64,000 nt of DNA from Modestobacter altitudinis (lineage in GTDB: Bacteria > Actinomycetota > Actinomycetes > Mycobacteriales > Geodermatophilaceae): assembly GCF_005930475.1 (NCBI RefSeq), contig NZ_SJEW01000020.1, forward strand, positions 1 to 64,000, given 5' to 3'. This document shows positions 55,287 through 62,901 of the stretch, piece by piece. Numbering within the stretch: position 1 is the stretch's first letter; the number at the start of each line of letters is the position of its first letter. The notes under the pieces were generated by a model, which worked only from the letters and a program-made list of their open reading frames with translations, had not been told where the DNA came from and ran no database searches. Both the position numbers and the translations under genes were made by a program.

Positions 55287-55478
55287 CGGGCCCTCCTCGG
55301 ACGTTTGTACCGAGAGTGTCCGATCACACACGAGGAGTGCCTGTGACGCGCCGACAGGGGGCGTGGCAGCTGCTGTCACAGCGGCGTGTCGCAGAAGGGT
55401 CACAGTGCGTCCCAGCAGGTCGATGTGTGTAACAGGGGTGGGTTACTGTCCCGGCTCAACCAACGGCTGGGAGGTCGA

Positions 55479-56852
55479 GTGACGCACGCGCAGCACCGCG
55501 CCCGAGGGCACGGTGGACGCAGCTCCACCGGAGAGGTACCGGTGGCGCCAGCGACGACCGGCGGACGCGCGGAGCGGTGGCGCTCCGGACGGCGGCCGCT
55601 GGTCCTCGCGTTGCTCGTCGCCGCGTTCGCCATGGCACTGGCCACGCTCGTCCCCGGGATCGCCAGCGCCCAGGGCGAACGACTCGTCGGCACCCTGCAG
55701 ACCAGCCGCAGCGGCCCCATCGAGGGCGTCGAGGTGACCGTCGAGACCGCGACCGGCGAGGAGGTCGCGTCGGTCGAGACCGACGAGGACGGCCGCTTCG
55801 CCATCGACCTGCCCGCGGCCGGGACCTACACCATCAGCCTCGACGAGGACGCGTTGCCCGACGGCGTCGCACTCGGCACCGGCGGTGCGAGCCGCGACGT
55901 CACGGTCGACACCGGGCGGTCCCAGCCGGTGAACTTCGGCCTCGTCGACGGCAGCTCGAACGCCGGCGGCGGCTCCGTCGAGGCCGTCCAGCTGCTGGTC
56001 GACGGCATCCGGTTCGGCCTGCTGATCGCGGTCTGCGCGGTCGGCCTCTCGCTGATCTTCGGCACCACCGGGCTGACCAACTTCGCGCACGGTGAGCTGG
56101 TCACCATCGGCGCGGTCATCGCCTGGTACATCAACGTCCGCGGCGGGATCCCGCTGATCCCGGCCACGGTCATCGCGATGATCGCCGGCGCGGGTGTCGG
56201 CATCCTCAACGAACGAGCTGTGTGGCGGCCGCTGCGCCGCCGCGGCACCGGCCTGGTCGCCGCCCTGGTGGTCTCGATCGGCCTGTCGATGGTGCTGCGC
56301 TACGCCGTGCAGATCGTCTACGGCGGCTTCTCCAACCCCTACGCCGACTACCAGAGCCAGCGGGCCGTCGACTACGGCGTCTTCACCATGACCAACCGGT
56401 CGTTGGCCTCGATCATCATCTCGGTGGTCGTGCTGGTGCTGGTCGCGCTGATGCTGCAGCGCACCAAGATCGGCAAGGCGATGCGCGCGGTGTCCGACAA
56501 CCGCGACCTGGCCGCCTCCTCGGGGATCGACGTCGACCGCGTCATCCTCGTCGTCTGGATGATGGGCGGTGCGCTGGCCACCCTCGGCGGTGTGCTGCTC
56601 GGCCTGTCCGACCAGGTCCAGTGGGACATGGGCTTCCGTCTGCTGCTGCTCATGTTCGCCGGGGTCACCCTGGGCGGGCTCGGCACGGCCTACGGCGCCC
56701 TGATCGGCTCCCTCATCGTCGGTGTGTTCGTGCAGATGTCCACCCTCGTCATCCCCAGTGACGTGAAGTACGTCGGAGGCCTGCTCCTGTTGATCGTCAT
56801 CCTCGTTCTCAGGCCCCAGGGCATCCTGGGCAGCCGGGCCCGGATCGGCTGA
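55479..56852 (+). CDS. livH: Branched-chain amino acid ABC transporter permease LivH with N-terminal extracytoplasmic domain
   Basis: A 457-aa LivH-type permease. Residues 165-457 are the usual membrane domain: LLVDGIRFGLLIAVCAVGLSLIFGTTGLTNFAHGELVTIGA, then IVYGGFSNPY, AMRAVSDNRDLAASSGIDVDRV and GGLGTAYGALIGSLIVG. Unusually, a signal-peptide-like segment at about residues 40-64 (ending ASAQ) precedes a carboxypeptidase-regulatory-like beta-sandwich (RLVGTLQTSRSGPIEGVEVTVETATGEEVASVETDEDGRFAIDLPAAGTYTISLDED, about 68-150). The GTG at 55479 follows GGGAGGT. First gene of livHMGF. Confidence 0.87.
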   Translation: MTHAQHRARGHGGRSSTGEVPVAPATTGGRAERWRSGRRPLVLALLVAAFAMALATLVPGIASAQGERLVGTLQTSRSGPIEGVEVTVETATGEEVASVETDEDGRFAIDLPAAGTYTISLDEDALPDGVALGTGGASRDVTVDTGRSQPVNFGLVDGSSNAGGGSVEAVQLLVDGIRFGLLIAVCAVGLSLIFGTTGLTNFAHGELVTIGAVIAWYINVRGGIPLIPATVIAMIAGAGVGILNERAVWRPLRRRGTGLVAALVVSIGLSMVLRYAVQIVYGGFSNPYADYQSQRAVDYGVFTMTNRSLASIIISVVVLVLVALMLQRTKIGKAMRAVSDNRDLAASSGIDVDRVILVVWMMGGALATLGGVLLGLSDQVQWDMGFRLLLLMFAGVTLGGLGTAYGALIGSLIVGVFVQMSTLVIPSDVKYVGGLLLLIVILVLRPQGILGSRARIG

Positions 56853-56856
56853 CCCG

Positions 56857-57855
56857 ATGTCGGACCTCATCGACGCGTTCCAGGTCGCCGGCAAGGCGTT
56901 CTTCGGCTTCCAGGCGATCTTCTTCGCCCTGCTCGCCATCGGCATCAACGTGCACTTCGGGTACACCGGGCTGCTCAACTTCGGGCAGATCGCCTTCGCC
57001 ATGCTCGGGGGCTTCGGCATCGCCATCTCGGTCAGCCAGTGGGGCCTGAACTTCTGGGTCGGCGTGCTGGTCGGCATCGCGGCGGCCGTCGTGCTCGCCC
57101 TGCTGCTGGGGCTGCCCACCCTGCGGCTGCGGGCGGACTACCTGGCGATCGTCACCATCGCCACGGCGGAGGGGCTGAGACTGCTCTTCCGGTCCGTGTC
57201 GGCCACGCCGGTCACCGGGGGCACCCGGGGCCTGTCGGCCTTCAACACCGACTTCATCGCCCTCGCCCCGTGGGACACCGCCCGCCGCTACAACATCCTG
57301 GGCACCTCGTGGAGCGGCGGCGAGCTGTGGGTCGCCCTCGTCGGGTGGCTGGTCGTGACGGCGTTCAGCCTGCTGGTCTGGCAGCTCATGCGCAGCCCCT
57401 GGGGGCGCGTGGTCAAGGCCATCCGGGAGGACGAGGACGCCGTCCGGGCGCTGGGCAAGAACGTCTACTCCTACAAGATGCAGGCGCTGGTGCTCGGCGG
57501 TGTGATCGGTTCCTTCGGCGGCATGGTCTACGCCATCGGCACCGGGTCGGCGATCCCCGACCAGTACCAGAACGCCAACACCTTCCTGGCCTACGCGGCC
57601 CTGATCCTCGGTGGCGCGGCCCGGGTGCTGGGCCCGGTCATCGGGTCCATGCTGCTGCTGTTCATCCTGCAGTTCGCCGACACCGGCCTGCGGGCGCTGA
57701 TCTCCAACGGCGTCATCCCCGACACGTTGCTCTCCTCCACCGACGTGGCGCAGATCCGCTTCGTCCTGGTCGGGATCGGGCTCATGCTGTTGCTGGTGTT
57801 CCGTCCCCAGGGCATCTTCGGTGACCGACGAGAGGTGATGCTCGATGCCCGCTGA
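56857..57855 (+). CDS. livM: Branched-chain amino acid ABC transporter permease LivM
   Basis: A 332-aa LivM permease, eight or more hydrophobic segments, with INVHFGYTGLLNFGQIAFAMLG, RADYLAIVTIATAEGLRLLFRS, VIREDEDAVRALGKN-type EAA loop (AIREDEDAVRALGKNVYSYKM) and VFRPQGIFGDRREVM at the end. It starts 4 bp after the livH stop and overlaps livG by 11 bp. It forms the translocation pore with LivH. Confidence 0.93.
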   Translation: MSDLIDAFQVAGKAFFGFQAIFFALLAIGINVHFGYTGLLNFGQIAFAMLGGFGIAISVSQWGLNFWVGVLVGIAAAVVLALLLGLPTLRLRADYLAIVTIATAEGLRLLFRSVSATPVTGGTRGLSAFNTDFIALAPWDTARRYNILGTSWSGGELWVALVGWLVVTAFSLLVWQLMRSPWGRVVKAIREDEDAVRALGKNVYSYKMQALVLGGVIGSFGGMVYAIGTGSAIPDQYQNANTFLAYAALILGGAARVLGPVIGSMLLLFILQFADTGLRALISNGVIPDTLLSSTDVAQIRFVLVGIGLMLLLVFRPQGIFGDRREVMLDAR

Positions 57856-58872
57856 GCCCACGGCCCACGGCGCGCACGCTGCCCGACCCGACGAGAACCC
57901 GGCGGCGGAGTCCGCGGGGCGGGTACCCCAGCGGCTCGCCCAGGCGGCCCTCAAGGACCTCCCCTGGGAGGTCGGGGTGGCCAAGCCGGACCCGGCGATC
58001 GTGGTCGACAAGGTCACCCGGTCCTTCGGTGGTCTGACCGCGGTGTCCGTCGACCACCTGGAGGTGCAGCGGGGTGGCATCACCGGGCTGATCGGCCCCA
58101 ACGGTGCCGGCAAGACCACGCTGTTCAACCTGCTCACCGGGTTCGACCAGCCCAACACCGGCACCTGGTCCTTCGACGGCCGTGACCTGGGCAAGCTCTC
58201 CCCGCACCAGGTGGCCCGGCTCGGCGTCGTCCGGACCTTCCAGCTCACCAAGGCGCTGTCCCGGCTCACCGTGCTGCAGAACATGCTGCTCGGCGCACAG
58301 AACCAGCGCGGCGAGAGCTTCCTGCGGGCCCTGGTGCCCGGCGGATGGCGCTCGCAGGAGAGGGAGAACACCGAGCGGGCCATGGACCTGCTCCGGCGGT
58401 TCAAGCTCGACGCGAAGAAGGACGACTTCGCCGGCATCCTGTCCGGTGGTCAACGCAAGCTGCTGGAGATGGCCCGCGCGCTGATGAGCGACCCGAAGGT
58501 CGTCATGCTCGACGAGCCGATGGCCGGGGTGAACCCGGCGCTCACCCAGAGCCTGCTCGGGCACGTCAAGGACCTCCGCGAGGAGGGGATGACGGTCATC
58601 TTCGTCGAGCACGACATGGACGTCGTCCGCGACATCAGCGACTGGGTCGTGGTCATGGCCGCCGGCAAGATCATCGCCGAGGGCCCGCCGGAGTCGATCA
58701 GCCAGAACAAGGCCGTCGTCGACGCCTACCTCGGCGCCCACCACGACGCGCCGCTGACCGTCGAGGAGGAGGACCGCGTCCTGGCCGAGGTCGACGCCTC
58801 GCTCGGCCGGGAGGACGGGCGGTCATCGGGCCGGCCCGGCACCGACGAGATCAGCAGCGACGGGAGCACCCG

Positions 58873-58876
<4 letters not shown>
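57845..58876 (+). CDS. livG: Branched-chain amino acid ABC transporter ATP-binding protein LivG
   Basis: A 343-aa ABC ATPase: Walker A GPNGAGKTTLF, Q-loop in VRTFQLTKALSRLTVL, signature LSGGQRKLLEMARALM, Walker B KVVMLDEPMAGVNP, H-loop VEHDMD. The N-terminal ~50 residues and the C-terminal ~40 acidic residues are extensions beyond the usual 255-aa LivG. Its stop overlaps the livF ATG (ATGA). Confidence 0.93.
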
Positions 58877-59724
<848 letters not shown>

Positions 59725-59835: not shown

Positions 59836-60261
59836 TCAGCCCAGCACGGCCCAGGCGCTCACCACGACGTTCACGGTGGCCGCGGCCACCCGCACGTCGT
59901 CGGCGCGCAGCAGCCGCGCGTACGCCGCCCGGTCGAAGCCGGCGCCCAGCACCCGGTGCTGCGGTACCGCGACCAGCCCGGTCACCGCCAGCACCACCGC
60001 CAGGCACACGGCGCTGGCGACCAGTGCGGGCACCACGACGCCCGCCGGCCGCCCCGCCAGCAACCAGCCGGTGGTCCCCAGCTGGCCGGCGAACAACGGT
60101 CCGACCACCCGGGCGATCCGCCGCGAGTGGCTGCTCTCGTACTCGGCGAACGAGCCGTGCGGCACCGCGGCGAACTGCGGGTACACCAGCGCCCGCACGG
60201 TCCACTGGAAGCCCGCGTAGCCCCCCACGAGCAGCAGGTGCGCCACCGCCACCGCGCTCAC
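59836..60261 (-). CDS. Small hypothetical membrane protein
   Basis: A 141-aa protein with four hydrophobic segments (AVAHLLLVGGYAGFQWTV, VVGPLFAGQLGTTGWLLAG, VVVPALVASAVCLAVVLAV, VRVAAATVNVVVSAWAVLG). The PQFAAVPHGSFAEYESSHSRRIARV loop between the first two helices looks conserved-like and could be functional. I do not recognise a named family with confidence. The GTG start overlaps the stop of the upstream small gene (GTGA). Confidence 0.65.
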   Translation of the reverse strand: MSAVAVAHLLLVGGYAGFQWTVRALVYPQFAAVPHGSFAEYESSHSRRIARVVGPLFAGQLGTTGWLLAGRPAGVVVPALVASAVCLAVVLAVTGLVAVPQHRVLGAGFDRAAYARLLRADDVRVAAATVNVVVSAWAVLG

Positions 60262-60587
60262 GCGGGGCGCGCCCGACGGCCGGCCCGCTTCCCACGCCAG
60301 GCGAGGCTCTGCGCGTCGAGCTGCTGCAGCAGCGGGTCGCCCTCCGCCGCGATCCGCTCGGCCAGGGCCACCGCGGCATCGAGCTGGTCGTCGTCGAGCT
60401 GGGCGAAGGCCGGGGACCGGCGGCGGTCCAGGACGTCGTACCAGCGACCCTGGACGGCGTGGTCGAGGACGATCCGGCCGAAGCAGTGGTCGGCCGTGAC
60501 CACCCACCGCTCGACGCGGGCCCGCCGGGGCAGCTCGTCGAGCACCAGCTCGCGGTAGCGGGACAGCTGTCGCGCGCGGTCGGCCAC
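60258..60587 (-). CDS. Conserved hypothetical protein
   Basis: A 109-aa soluble protein with YRELVLDELPRRARVERWVVTADHCFGRIVLDHAVQGRWYDVLD, a pattern seen in small actinobacterial proteins of unknown function. A basic C-terminus (GKRAGRRARPA) overlaps the next gene start. GTG at 60587. The coupling with the membrane protein suggests a two-gene unit. Confidence 0.7.
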   Translation of the reverse strand: MADRARQLSRYRELVLDELPRRARVERWVVTADHCFGRIVLDHAVQGRWYDVLDRRRSPAFAQLDDDQLDAAVALAERIAAEGDPLLQQLDAQSLAWRGKRAGRRARPA

Positions 60588-60710
60588 CGGACGAGTCTGC
60601 GGTGCCCGCGCAGACCTCGCTCCCCGTGCCCCGGACAGCACTGCGGCCCAGCACCCTGGTGGGGTGCCGGGCCGCAGCCTGGAGCGGGGTGTCACATGCC
60701 AATCAGGAGA

Positions 60711-62051
60711 TCAGCGCTGGGGGCCGACACCGTTCGTGTTGAGGCCCTGGATGATCCGCGAGGACTCCTCGAACCCGATGACGATGATCGCGTCGGGGCT
60801 GAACTCGGTCATCTGCTGCACCTCGGCGTCGTAGTTCGCCGCCTGCGGGTCGTAGATGACGCTCTGGATCGAGTCCTCCGGCAGACCGTCGGAGATCAGG
60901 TTGTTCTTGGTGTTCTCCGCCAGCCCGGTGCCGTAGGGGTCGTTGGTGGCGAGGATGCCGACGGTGTTGTTGCCGTCAGCGCCGATCAGGTCGGCCAGCG
61001 CGCGGGCCTGCAGCAGGTCCGGCGGCGCGGTGCGGAAGTACAGGTTCTGGTCGTTGTACGTCGTGAACTGGTCCGACGTGTTGGCCGGCGAGATCTGCAT
61101 GACGCCGGCCTGGGTGATCGTGTCGATCACGGTCAGGCTGACGCCCGAGGACGCCGCACCGATGATCGCGTTGACACCGGACTGCAGCAGGCGGTCGACG
61201 GTCTGGGTGGCGGTGTCGGTCGACGCGTCGCCCGAGTCACCGGTCACCAGGGTGATCGGCTTGCCGAGCACGCCACCGGCGGCGTTGATGTCGTTGATCG
61301 CCAGCTGGACGCCGGCGACCTCCGGCGGGCCGAGGAAGGCGAGGTTGCCGGTCTCGGGCAGCAGGGTGCCGATGGTCAGCGGGGTTGCGCTGGCCGGCGG
61401 GTTGGCGACCGGGGCGGGGCCGGCGTTCTGGGTGGCGTTGGCCTCGTCACCGGCGATGACGAACTGCGTCTTCGAGTCGTCGATCTTGTTGTCGGTGCCG
61501 AACTGCTGCAGGCCGAAGCTGGCCTGCGCGGGCTCGCCGGCGTCGGTGAAGCTGAGCGGGCCGGAGAAGCCGTCGTAGTCCACGTCGCCGCCGGCCTGGA
61601 TGATCGCCAGGCACGCCGCGAAGTCCGAGCACTTCTCGCCGGTCACGGTCAGGGCGTTGACGTACGGTCCGAAGGCCGTCGCCTGCGTGTTGCCGGCCGC
61701 CTGCGCCGCCAGCGCGATGAGCATGGTGGCGTCGTAGGACTCACCGGCGTAGTTGTAGTCGACCAGCTGGGGGTTCAACTGGAGCAGCCGGTCCTTGAAG
61801 TCGCCGGAGAGCTCCGTCAGCGGCAGGGTGCCCTTCATCCCCGCCAGGGCACCGGTCTCGGTGAAGTCCTCGCCGAGCGCGTTGCCCATGTTGCCGTCGG
61901 TGCCGTAGACGTTGACCTGCTTCTCGCTGCTCGAGCTGCCGCCGTCGTCGCTGCCGCTGTCACCGCTGTCGTCGCTGCCACCACAGGCGGTCAGGGCGAG
62001 CAGGGCGGCACCGGAGAGGGCGGTCGCGCGGGCGATGGTGCCTGTGCGCAT
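60711..62051 (-). CDS. ABC transporter substrate-binding lipoprotein, branched-chain amino acid type, with circularly permuted domain order
   Basis: A 446-aa lipoprotein: signal peptide with lipobox LTAC (Cys23) and an acidic Gly/Ser linker. The next part, about residues 45-200 (QVNVYGTDGNMGNALGEDF to LQQFGTDNKI), is the normal C-terminal half of a LivK-type type I periplasmic-binding protein. A linker (about 200-222, Ala/Pro-rich) then leads to residues 223-446, TPLTIGTLLPETGNLAFLGPPEVAGV to GLNTNGVGPQR, the normal N-terminal half. The gene thus ends where family members continue. It should bind a ligand for LivHMGF, which is encoded convergently nearby. ATG at 62051 is chosen; an ATG at 62102 lacks a proper signal. 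Confidence 0.85.
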   Translation of the reverse strand: MRTGTIARATALSGAALLALTACGGSDDSGDSGSDDGGSSSSEKQVNVYGTDGNMGNALGEDFTETGALAGMKGTLPLTELSGDFKDRLLQLNPQLVDYNYAGESYDATMLIALAAQAAGNTQATAFGPYVNALTVTGEKCSDFAACLAIIQAGGDVDYDGFSGPLSFTDAGEPAQASFGLQQFGTDNKIDDSKTQFVIAGDEANATQNAGPAPVANPPASATPLTIGTLLPETGNLAFLGPPEVAGVQLAINDINAAGGVLGKPITLVTGDSGDASTDTATQTVDRLLQSGVNAIIGAASSGVSLTVIDTITQAGVMQISPANTSDQFTTYNDQNLYFRTAPPDLLQARALADLIGADGNNTVGILATNDPYGTGLAENTKNNLISDGLPEDSIQSVIYDPQAANYDAEVQQMTEFSPDAIIVIGFEESSRIIQGLNTNGVGPQR

Positions 62052-62283: not shown

Positions 62284-62901
62284 TCAGGACCCGGCGGGCC
62301 CACCCGCCGGTGTGGCCTCGTCCGCCGTCTCCGTGGTCAGGATCGCCTGGGCCAGCGCCTTCATCGAGGTGCGCTCGTTCATCGCCGTCCGCTGGATCCA
62401 GCGGAAGGCCTCGGCCTCGGTCATGCCGCGGTCGGCCATCAGCCGGCCCTTGGCCTGCTCGACGACCTTGCGGGCCTCGAGCCGCTCCTTGAGGTCGGTG
62501 ACCTCGGCGTCCAGGGCGTGCATCTCCTGGAACCGGCCGACGGCGACCTCGATCGCCGGGACCAGGTCGTTCTTGGAGAACGGCTTGACAAGGTAGGCCA
62601 TGGCACCGGCGTCGCGGGCCCGCTCCACCAGCTCCCGCTGGCTGAAGGCGGTCAGCACGATGACCGGGGCGATCCGGGCCGCCGCGATCTGCTCCGCCGC
62701 GGCGATCCCGTCGAGGACGGGCATCTGCACGTCGACGATCACGAGGTCGGGGCGGAGTTGCCGGGCCTGGTCGACGGCCGCCTGCCCGTCGCCGACCTCG
62801 GCGACGACGACGTATCCCTCCTCCTCCAGCATCTCCTTGAGGTCGAGGCGGATGAGTGCCTCGTCCTCGGCGATGAGGACACGGGTCGGCTCGCTGCTCA
62901 C
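62284..62901 (-). CDS. pdtaR: Two-component response regulator with ANTAR RNA-binding domain
   Basis: A 205-aa PdtaR-type regulator. The receiver domain has the acidic pair E12-D13, phospho-acceptor D57 (IVDVQMP), TAF and KPF motifs; the C-terminal ANTAR domain has KVVEQAKGRLMADRGMTEAEAFRWIQRTAM. Phosphorylated ANTAR proteins bind tandem-hairpin mRNA leaders and prevent termination. The cognate kinase PdtaS is not in the window. Homologous to Rv1626, which also lies near polA and rpsA in mycobacteria. Confidence 0.94.
   Translation of the reverse strand: MSSEPTRVLIAEDEALIRLDLKEMLEEEGYVVVAEVGDGQAAVDQARQLRPDLVIVDVQMPVLDGIAAAEQIAAARIAPVIVLTAFSQRELVERARDAGAMAYLVKPFSKNDLVPAIEVAVGRFQEMHALDAEVTDLKERLEARKVVEQAKGRLMADRGMTEAEAFRWIQRTAMNERTSMKALAQAILTTETADEATPAGGPAGS

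Follow-up and report, generated by a model that had tools for sequence, protein, structure and literature searches.

We have analyzed a substrate-binding protein (SBP) gene in a 64,000-nucleotide stretch of the Modestobacter altitudinis genome (contig NZ_SJEW01000020.1, positions 1 to 64,000), referred to here as the window. The gene encodes a 446-residue lipoprotein, and our analysis confirms that this is a circularly permuted binding protein of the LivK type (Pfam family Peripla_BP_6). Throughout, N-part and C-part denote the first and second parts of the canonical protein, whatever their order in the chain; in the window protein the C-part comes first. The whole reading, namely a permuted LivK-type lipoprotein with a transport role that originated in place and whose rearrangement recurred within the Actinomycetota, is assigned a probability of about 0.8. 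The recurrence of the permuted form in other lineages goes beyond what a sequence-only reading of the window had observed.

Swapped chain order in a LivK-type lipoprotein

The sequence-only reading had proposed a lipoprotein signal followed by two exchanged halves of a binding protein, joined by a linker between the old C- and N-termini. The motif LTAC with Cys23, which we take to be a lipobox under the usual rule, is present in the open reading frame, and the linker is found at residues 204-222. Positions 1-217 of the 343 in the Peripla_BP_6 profile align to residues 224-444 with 122.7 bits (Pfam cut-off 31.7). When the residues ahead of this match were scanned alone, they aligned to positions 232-345 of 353 of the ANF_receptor profile with 24.3 bits (E = 1.9e-5), just below the cut-off of 25.4 for that profile. 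Homology of the C-part to the C-terminal half of the family is further indicated by its 50-55% identity to canonical orthologues from Rhodococcus and Rhodococcoides (loci L066, L067 and L071), for which the corresponding value in the N-part is 64-65%. The two stretches are thus exchanged relative to the LivK/Peripla_BP_6 order, and the collinear match that had been named as contrary evidence was not obtained. Against the NCBIfam LivK subfamily model NF011933 the protein scored 69 bits, compared with a cut-off of 477. Profile annotation of such proteins calls for caution, as it aligns mainly half of the chain.

A canonical-order hidden Markov model (HMM) of 374 positions was built in this analysis from 67 canonical proteins. 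Each of the 124 distinct permuted proteins aligned to it as two stretches with their order exchanged, and each of the 77 canonical proteins as a single collinear stretch; since the sets were sorted by order and the 67 canonical proteins are contained in the HMM, these proportions follow in part from the design. The near-exact tiling at the cut does not. Two breakpoints were found, about 20 residues apart. In type A (102 distinct proteins) the N-part stops at about position 219 and the C-part starts at 213-221, and the gap or overlap lies between -8 and +3 positions in 101 of the 102; the single outlier, with a gap of 67 positions, is most likely L234, a gene interrupted by a contig end. In type B (22 distinct proteins) the N-part stops at 238-241 and the C-part starts at 226-241, with an overlap of 1 to 16 positions. 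Related genomes carry proteins in both orders, and profile and HMM alignments agree that the window protein terminates exactly where its canonical relatives carry on. The linker changes faster than either part, and both parts are under constraint.

In a structure model the cut falls in a loop flanked by helix 428-439 and strand 47-51 and does not lie between the two lobes; the swapped units are halves of the chain and not lobes. The order of the halves proposed earlier is upheld by Pfam and the HMM, but the boundary is a helix-strand loop instead of the proposed hinge. Residues 223-444 have a LivK-type fold and share 14-28% identity with the solved chains listed. Several points weigh against an equally direct assignment for the rest of the chain. 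Profiles of the C-part retrieved no solved structure from PDB sequences at E 0.01 (up to E 10 there were eight matches: GET3 ATPases, a plant protein and a plant glutamate receptor), the fold comparison spanned mainly residues 221-446, and four other models scored lower (61.5-71.2). For the fold of the C-part the support thus comes from the model and from orthology.

Conservation and genomic setting

In 22 of the 23 genomes of the genus, including the single-contig assemblies G007 and G020, the gene is present at full length as a single open frame; the exception, G002, is 80% complete. In the family, 95 of 112 genomes have a match at 1e-40, of which 92 are full length and three partial (G424, G425 and G431), and 17 have none; a single match is found in 86 of the 95. 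Among 43 named loci, 33 are permuted and all of these belong to the Geodermatophilaceae, eight are canonical (Rhodococcus, Rhodococcoides, Cryobacterium, Amycolatopsis and an Actinomycetales metagenome-assembled genome, MAG), and two have an N-part match only. An assembly rearrangement, or a miscalled pair of separate genes, had been raised as the alternative to a true permutation. We found no point in its favour, and the same unbroken frame in 22 genus genomes and at 33 named loci opposes it; with full-length copies in 92 family genomes, an assembly artefact is rejected and artefacts of either kind have a negligible probability.

Of 397 genomes searched at the level of the order, 180 gave a match at 1e-40, and at least 135 of these have a full-span permuted match (67 in family f1, 67 in f16 and one in f13). 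The other 45 score lower; since the matches listed show 11 of them, each with the N-part only, their chain order is mostly unseen. Plasmid records gave three matches, all below 60% identity. A literature search for proteomic evidence of the protein yielded nothing useful among the matches listed. Three genus genomes (L076, L077 and L078) have an additional, distant paralogue in canonical order, which in L076 and L077 lies downstream of a co-oriented liv gene set.

Table 1. Features of the permuted SBP gene and its neighbours in the window
Feature	Position	Strand	Remarks
LivH-type permease	55386..56852	+	CarboxypepD_reg domain ahead of membrane part; GTG start uncertain
LivM-type permease	56857..57855	+	
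LivG-type ATPase	57845..58876	+	
LivF-type ATPase	58816..59724	+	frame start chosen by us, uncertain
Permuted LivK-type substrate-binding lipoprotein gene	60711..62051	-	446 aa; start 62051, stop 60711-60713
N-part, at end of chain	60714..61385	-	residues 223-446; terminates GVGPQR
Ala/Pro-rich linker, old C-end to old N-end	61386..61442	-	residues 204-222
C-part, at front of chain	61443..61919	-	residues 45-203; YGTDGN (Asp52), Cys141/Cys147
Gly/Ser/Asp spacer	61920..61982	-	residues 24-44; low model confidence
Signal peptide with lipobox LTAC and Cys23	61983..62051	-	residues 1-23; read off the sequence
Response regulator with ANTAR domain	62284..62901	-	adjoins many canonical and permuted SBP genes

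The linked LivHMGF transporter expected of a LivK-family protein is present at 55386-59724 (Table 1). The common setting consists of the ANTAR regulator, the SBP gene and then livFGMH convergent with it. It surrounds the permuted genes in the Geodermatophilaceae as well as canonical ones in Rhodococcus, Rhodococcoides and the Actinomycetales MAG, and is also seen for permuted and canonical loci of families f41 and f49. The canonical orthologues L066 and L071, the latter from Rhodococcoides trifolii, occupy the same locus; the presence of canonical orthologues at this site implies that the swap in the Geodermatophilaceae lineage befell a resident gene. Three findings weigh against a uniform setting: the type B genes L175 and L176 of f68 are divergent from the adjoining livH, an ANTAR neighbour was not detected at the f39 or type B loci, and no liv genes were seen within the available stretch at the six f16 loci examined. 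Permuted f16 copies are found at L079 (9193-10653) and at L151-L155, and the neighbours of the L079 copy are enoyl-CoA hydratase and 3-hydroxyacyl-CoA dehydrogenase genes.

A link between permutation and the CarboxypepD_reg domain of LivH was considered and rejected, as the domain also occurs beside canonical genes, in eight of nine further LivH proteins; matches in these proteins, weaker than that in the window and mostly below the Pfam cut-off, adjoin canonical and permuted SBP genes alike, and the domain is absent at one type B locus. Between the SBP gene and livF, at 59836-60695, are one or two small frames with no Pfam match. Similar frames at the same place in L033 and L036 lie on opposite strands relative to the SBP gene, so that the true frame here is unsure.

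Recurrence and origin of the permutation

Full-span permuted matches occur in at least 11 of 394 genomes at the class level and at least 8 of 396 at the phylum level, in families f49, f39, f41, f68, f81 and f122 outside the order. At 1e-50, 13 of 197 f41 genomes are permuted, 110 match without a full-span row and 74 have no match; the corresponding numbers are 51, 36 and 63 of 150 for f81, and 11, 54 and 20 of 85 for f49. In L237 (4686-8291) two type B permuted genes stand in tandem, with the lipobox Cys about ten residues from the domain start.

For the SBP trees both parts were set in one order and the columns adjoining the cut were excluded; the form (order) was assigned from sequence ahead of any tree. 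A careful tree of 56 rows required five changes of form. Approximately unbiased (AU) tests rejected a single clade of all permuted rows (p = 1.8e-4), of type A (p = 1e-46) and of type B (p = 0.014), as well as a single type A clade within f49, f39 and f41 (p = 0.001), a subgroup picked post hoc from the first tree. A 64-row tree also gave five changes, at least four of them for canonical versus the rest on well-supported branches (starred below); with the same rows, the N-part alone gave six changes and the C-part alone five. A quick tree of 89 rows had six changes, and placed ten permuted f41 rows in one clade (97, starred) beside eight canonical f41 rows, with two further canonical f41 rows elsewhere. 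In a tree of LivG plus LivF from 36 loci, the permuted f41 locus falls among canonical f41 loci (100/99, starred) and the permuted f49 loci lie beside canonical ones of f49 (92/85, not starred). Canonical order is the commoner and is taken as ancestral; on this basis, and with reversal discounted, the counts indicate at least four independent permutations in the Actinomycetota, probably five.

These counts do not distinguish gain from loss, and if one ancient permutation had moved between lineages by horizontal transfer, or had in part gone back to canonical order, the separate origins would be an error of the trees. Such a history would fit the type A loop being common to three lineages, the grouping of permuted f39 and f49 SBPs whose LivG and LivF do not group, and two findings that weigh against multiple origins in general: some deep nodes are unresolved, and type B forms one clade in the LivG plus LivF tree, so that type B may have a single origin. 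Opposed to it are the AU tests, the distance between the type A and type B cuts, the f41 permuted clade beside canonical rows of the same family, and the grouping of LivG and LivF from the permuted f41 locus with those of canonical ones. We consider a single origin distinctly unlikely.

The Geodermatophilaceae form arose in place from a canonical gene. Most likely the gene was duplicated in tandem and the copies fused, copy 1 then losing its first part and copy 2 its last. Duplication followed by trimming, as the sequence-only reading also suggested, is the favoured route. Canonical SBP genes in tandem on the same strand were found at the locus in G718 (copies 81.5% identical), G1506, G1213 and G1502, and in G1481 a permuted gene adjoins a canonical one, which is consistent with permutation by duplication. 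G1338 has two permuted genes in tandem, with no liv genes found in its stretch. Three points count against duplication and favour a different route, for instance fission of the gene and later refusion, or recombination involving two distant SBP genes. No fused tandem gene was seen; the canonical motif before strand 1 is kept in 13 of 88 permuted linkers as compared with 44 of 67 canonical sequences, so that relics of duplication are weak; and the paired G1481 genes are distant, the tree not placing them as sisters. The same-strand tandem copies in four genomes argue the other way, and separate SBP half-genes were not noticed among the scanned loci, although no search aimed at them was made. 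Such routes are unlikely, and duplication with fusion remains our preferred origin.

Proposed function and relation to known systems

From sequence, model and synteny, the protein would be exported and lipidated at Cys23 and would form one bilobed fold. It would capture a ligand, most likely amino-acid-like, and hand it over to the convergent LivFGMH transporter. The old termini would be bridged by a flexible linker, and the new termini would lie in the helix-strand loop just ahead of the strand with the conserved DGN motif, so that the membrane tether would be attached at this loop instead of at the first strand. Ligand-facing residues of LivJ and LivK are Ser, Thr, Tyr and one acidic residue, presumably equivalent to S302, T325, Y373 and D52 here. 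All four are invariant in 31 rows, and D52 lies 29 residues from the lipobox Cys. This invariance, the retention of livFGMH beside the gene and the single match in most matching family genomes speak against a loss of transport in favour of a role as sensor or surface protein; that role, to which the ANTAR regulator adjoining the gene in several lineages and the f16 copies away from liv genes would lend themselves, is very unlikely. LivK of the Actinomycetota may be a natural permutation hot spot, re-cut at least four times and always in two neighbouring loops because relocation of the tether was selected, for example through changed presentation to a LivH with its extra domain; we regard this as possible, if doubtful.

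The protein resembles LivK/LivJ-type binding proteins (Peripla_BP_6; type I/cluster B) in the homology of both parts, the lipoprotein signal, the adjoining liv operon and the fold of residues 223-444. It differs in its permuted order and its low identity to the solved chains listed. The canonical Rhodococcus and Rhodococcoides orthologues, in contrast, run from N-part to C-part and have no internal linker. Natural circular permutations are often known only as remote pairs, so that how and why they originate is hard to test. Here both orders occur as orthologues at one locus, with 50-65% identity and in more than one lineage, and the tandem copies and one mixed pair are possible intermediates. 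Matched natural permutants could thus be compared for folding, ligand binding and transport, and one may ask whether relocation of the lipid anchor is neutral or selected. Several apparently separate swaps, mostly at the same genomic site, make this an unusually good natural case for the study of protein rearrangement.

The glycine-betaine-binding proteins belong to a fold class other than that of LivK. They are related through circular permutation, any pair sharing less than 24% identity, and the accessible part of that report describes no close pair in both orders (PMC2395249); a paper on OpuA makes no mention of permutation (PMC2861598). A closer parallel is Tp0684 (MglB-2) of Treponema pallidum, a natural circularly permuted type I binding protein that is lipid-anchored, as the lipobox predicts for the window protein, and binds glucose; the authors proposed a class for it, 'Type Ic / Cluster Bc', and considered that anchoring might be the reason (PMC4990184). 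The window protein is likewise a permuted type I protein. The cut of Tp0684, however, lies in the N-lobe and places the first three strands at the C-end, its permuted part being poorly conserved (13% identity) (PMC4990184), whereas in the window protein the C-end holds roughly the first 219 of the 374 canonical positions, conservation is good in both parts, and the permutation is recurrent. The earlier statement that no permuted solute-binding protein had been described holds for the LivK group among the literature matches listed, a search in which few subscription journals were covered, but not for other groups (PMC4990184, PMC2395249). Permuted binding proteins as a kind were known already; new are their occurrence in the LivK family, the presence of both orders among orthologues at a single locus, and the recurrence of the change.
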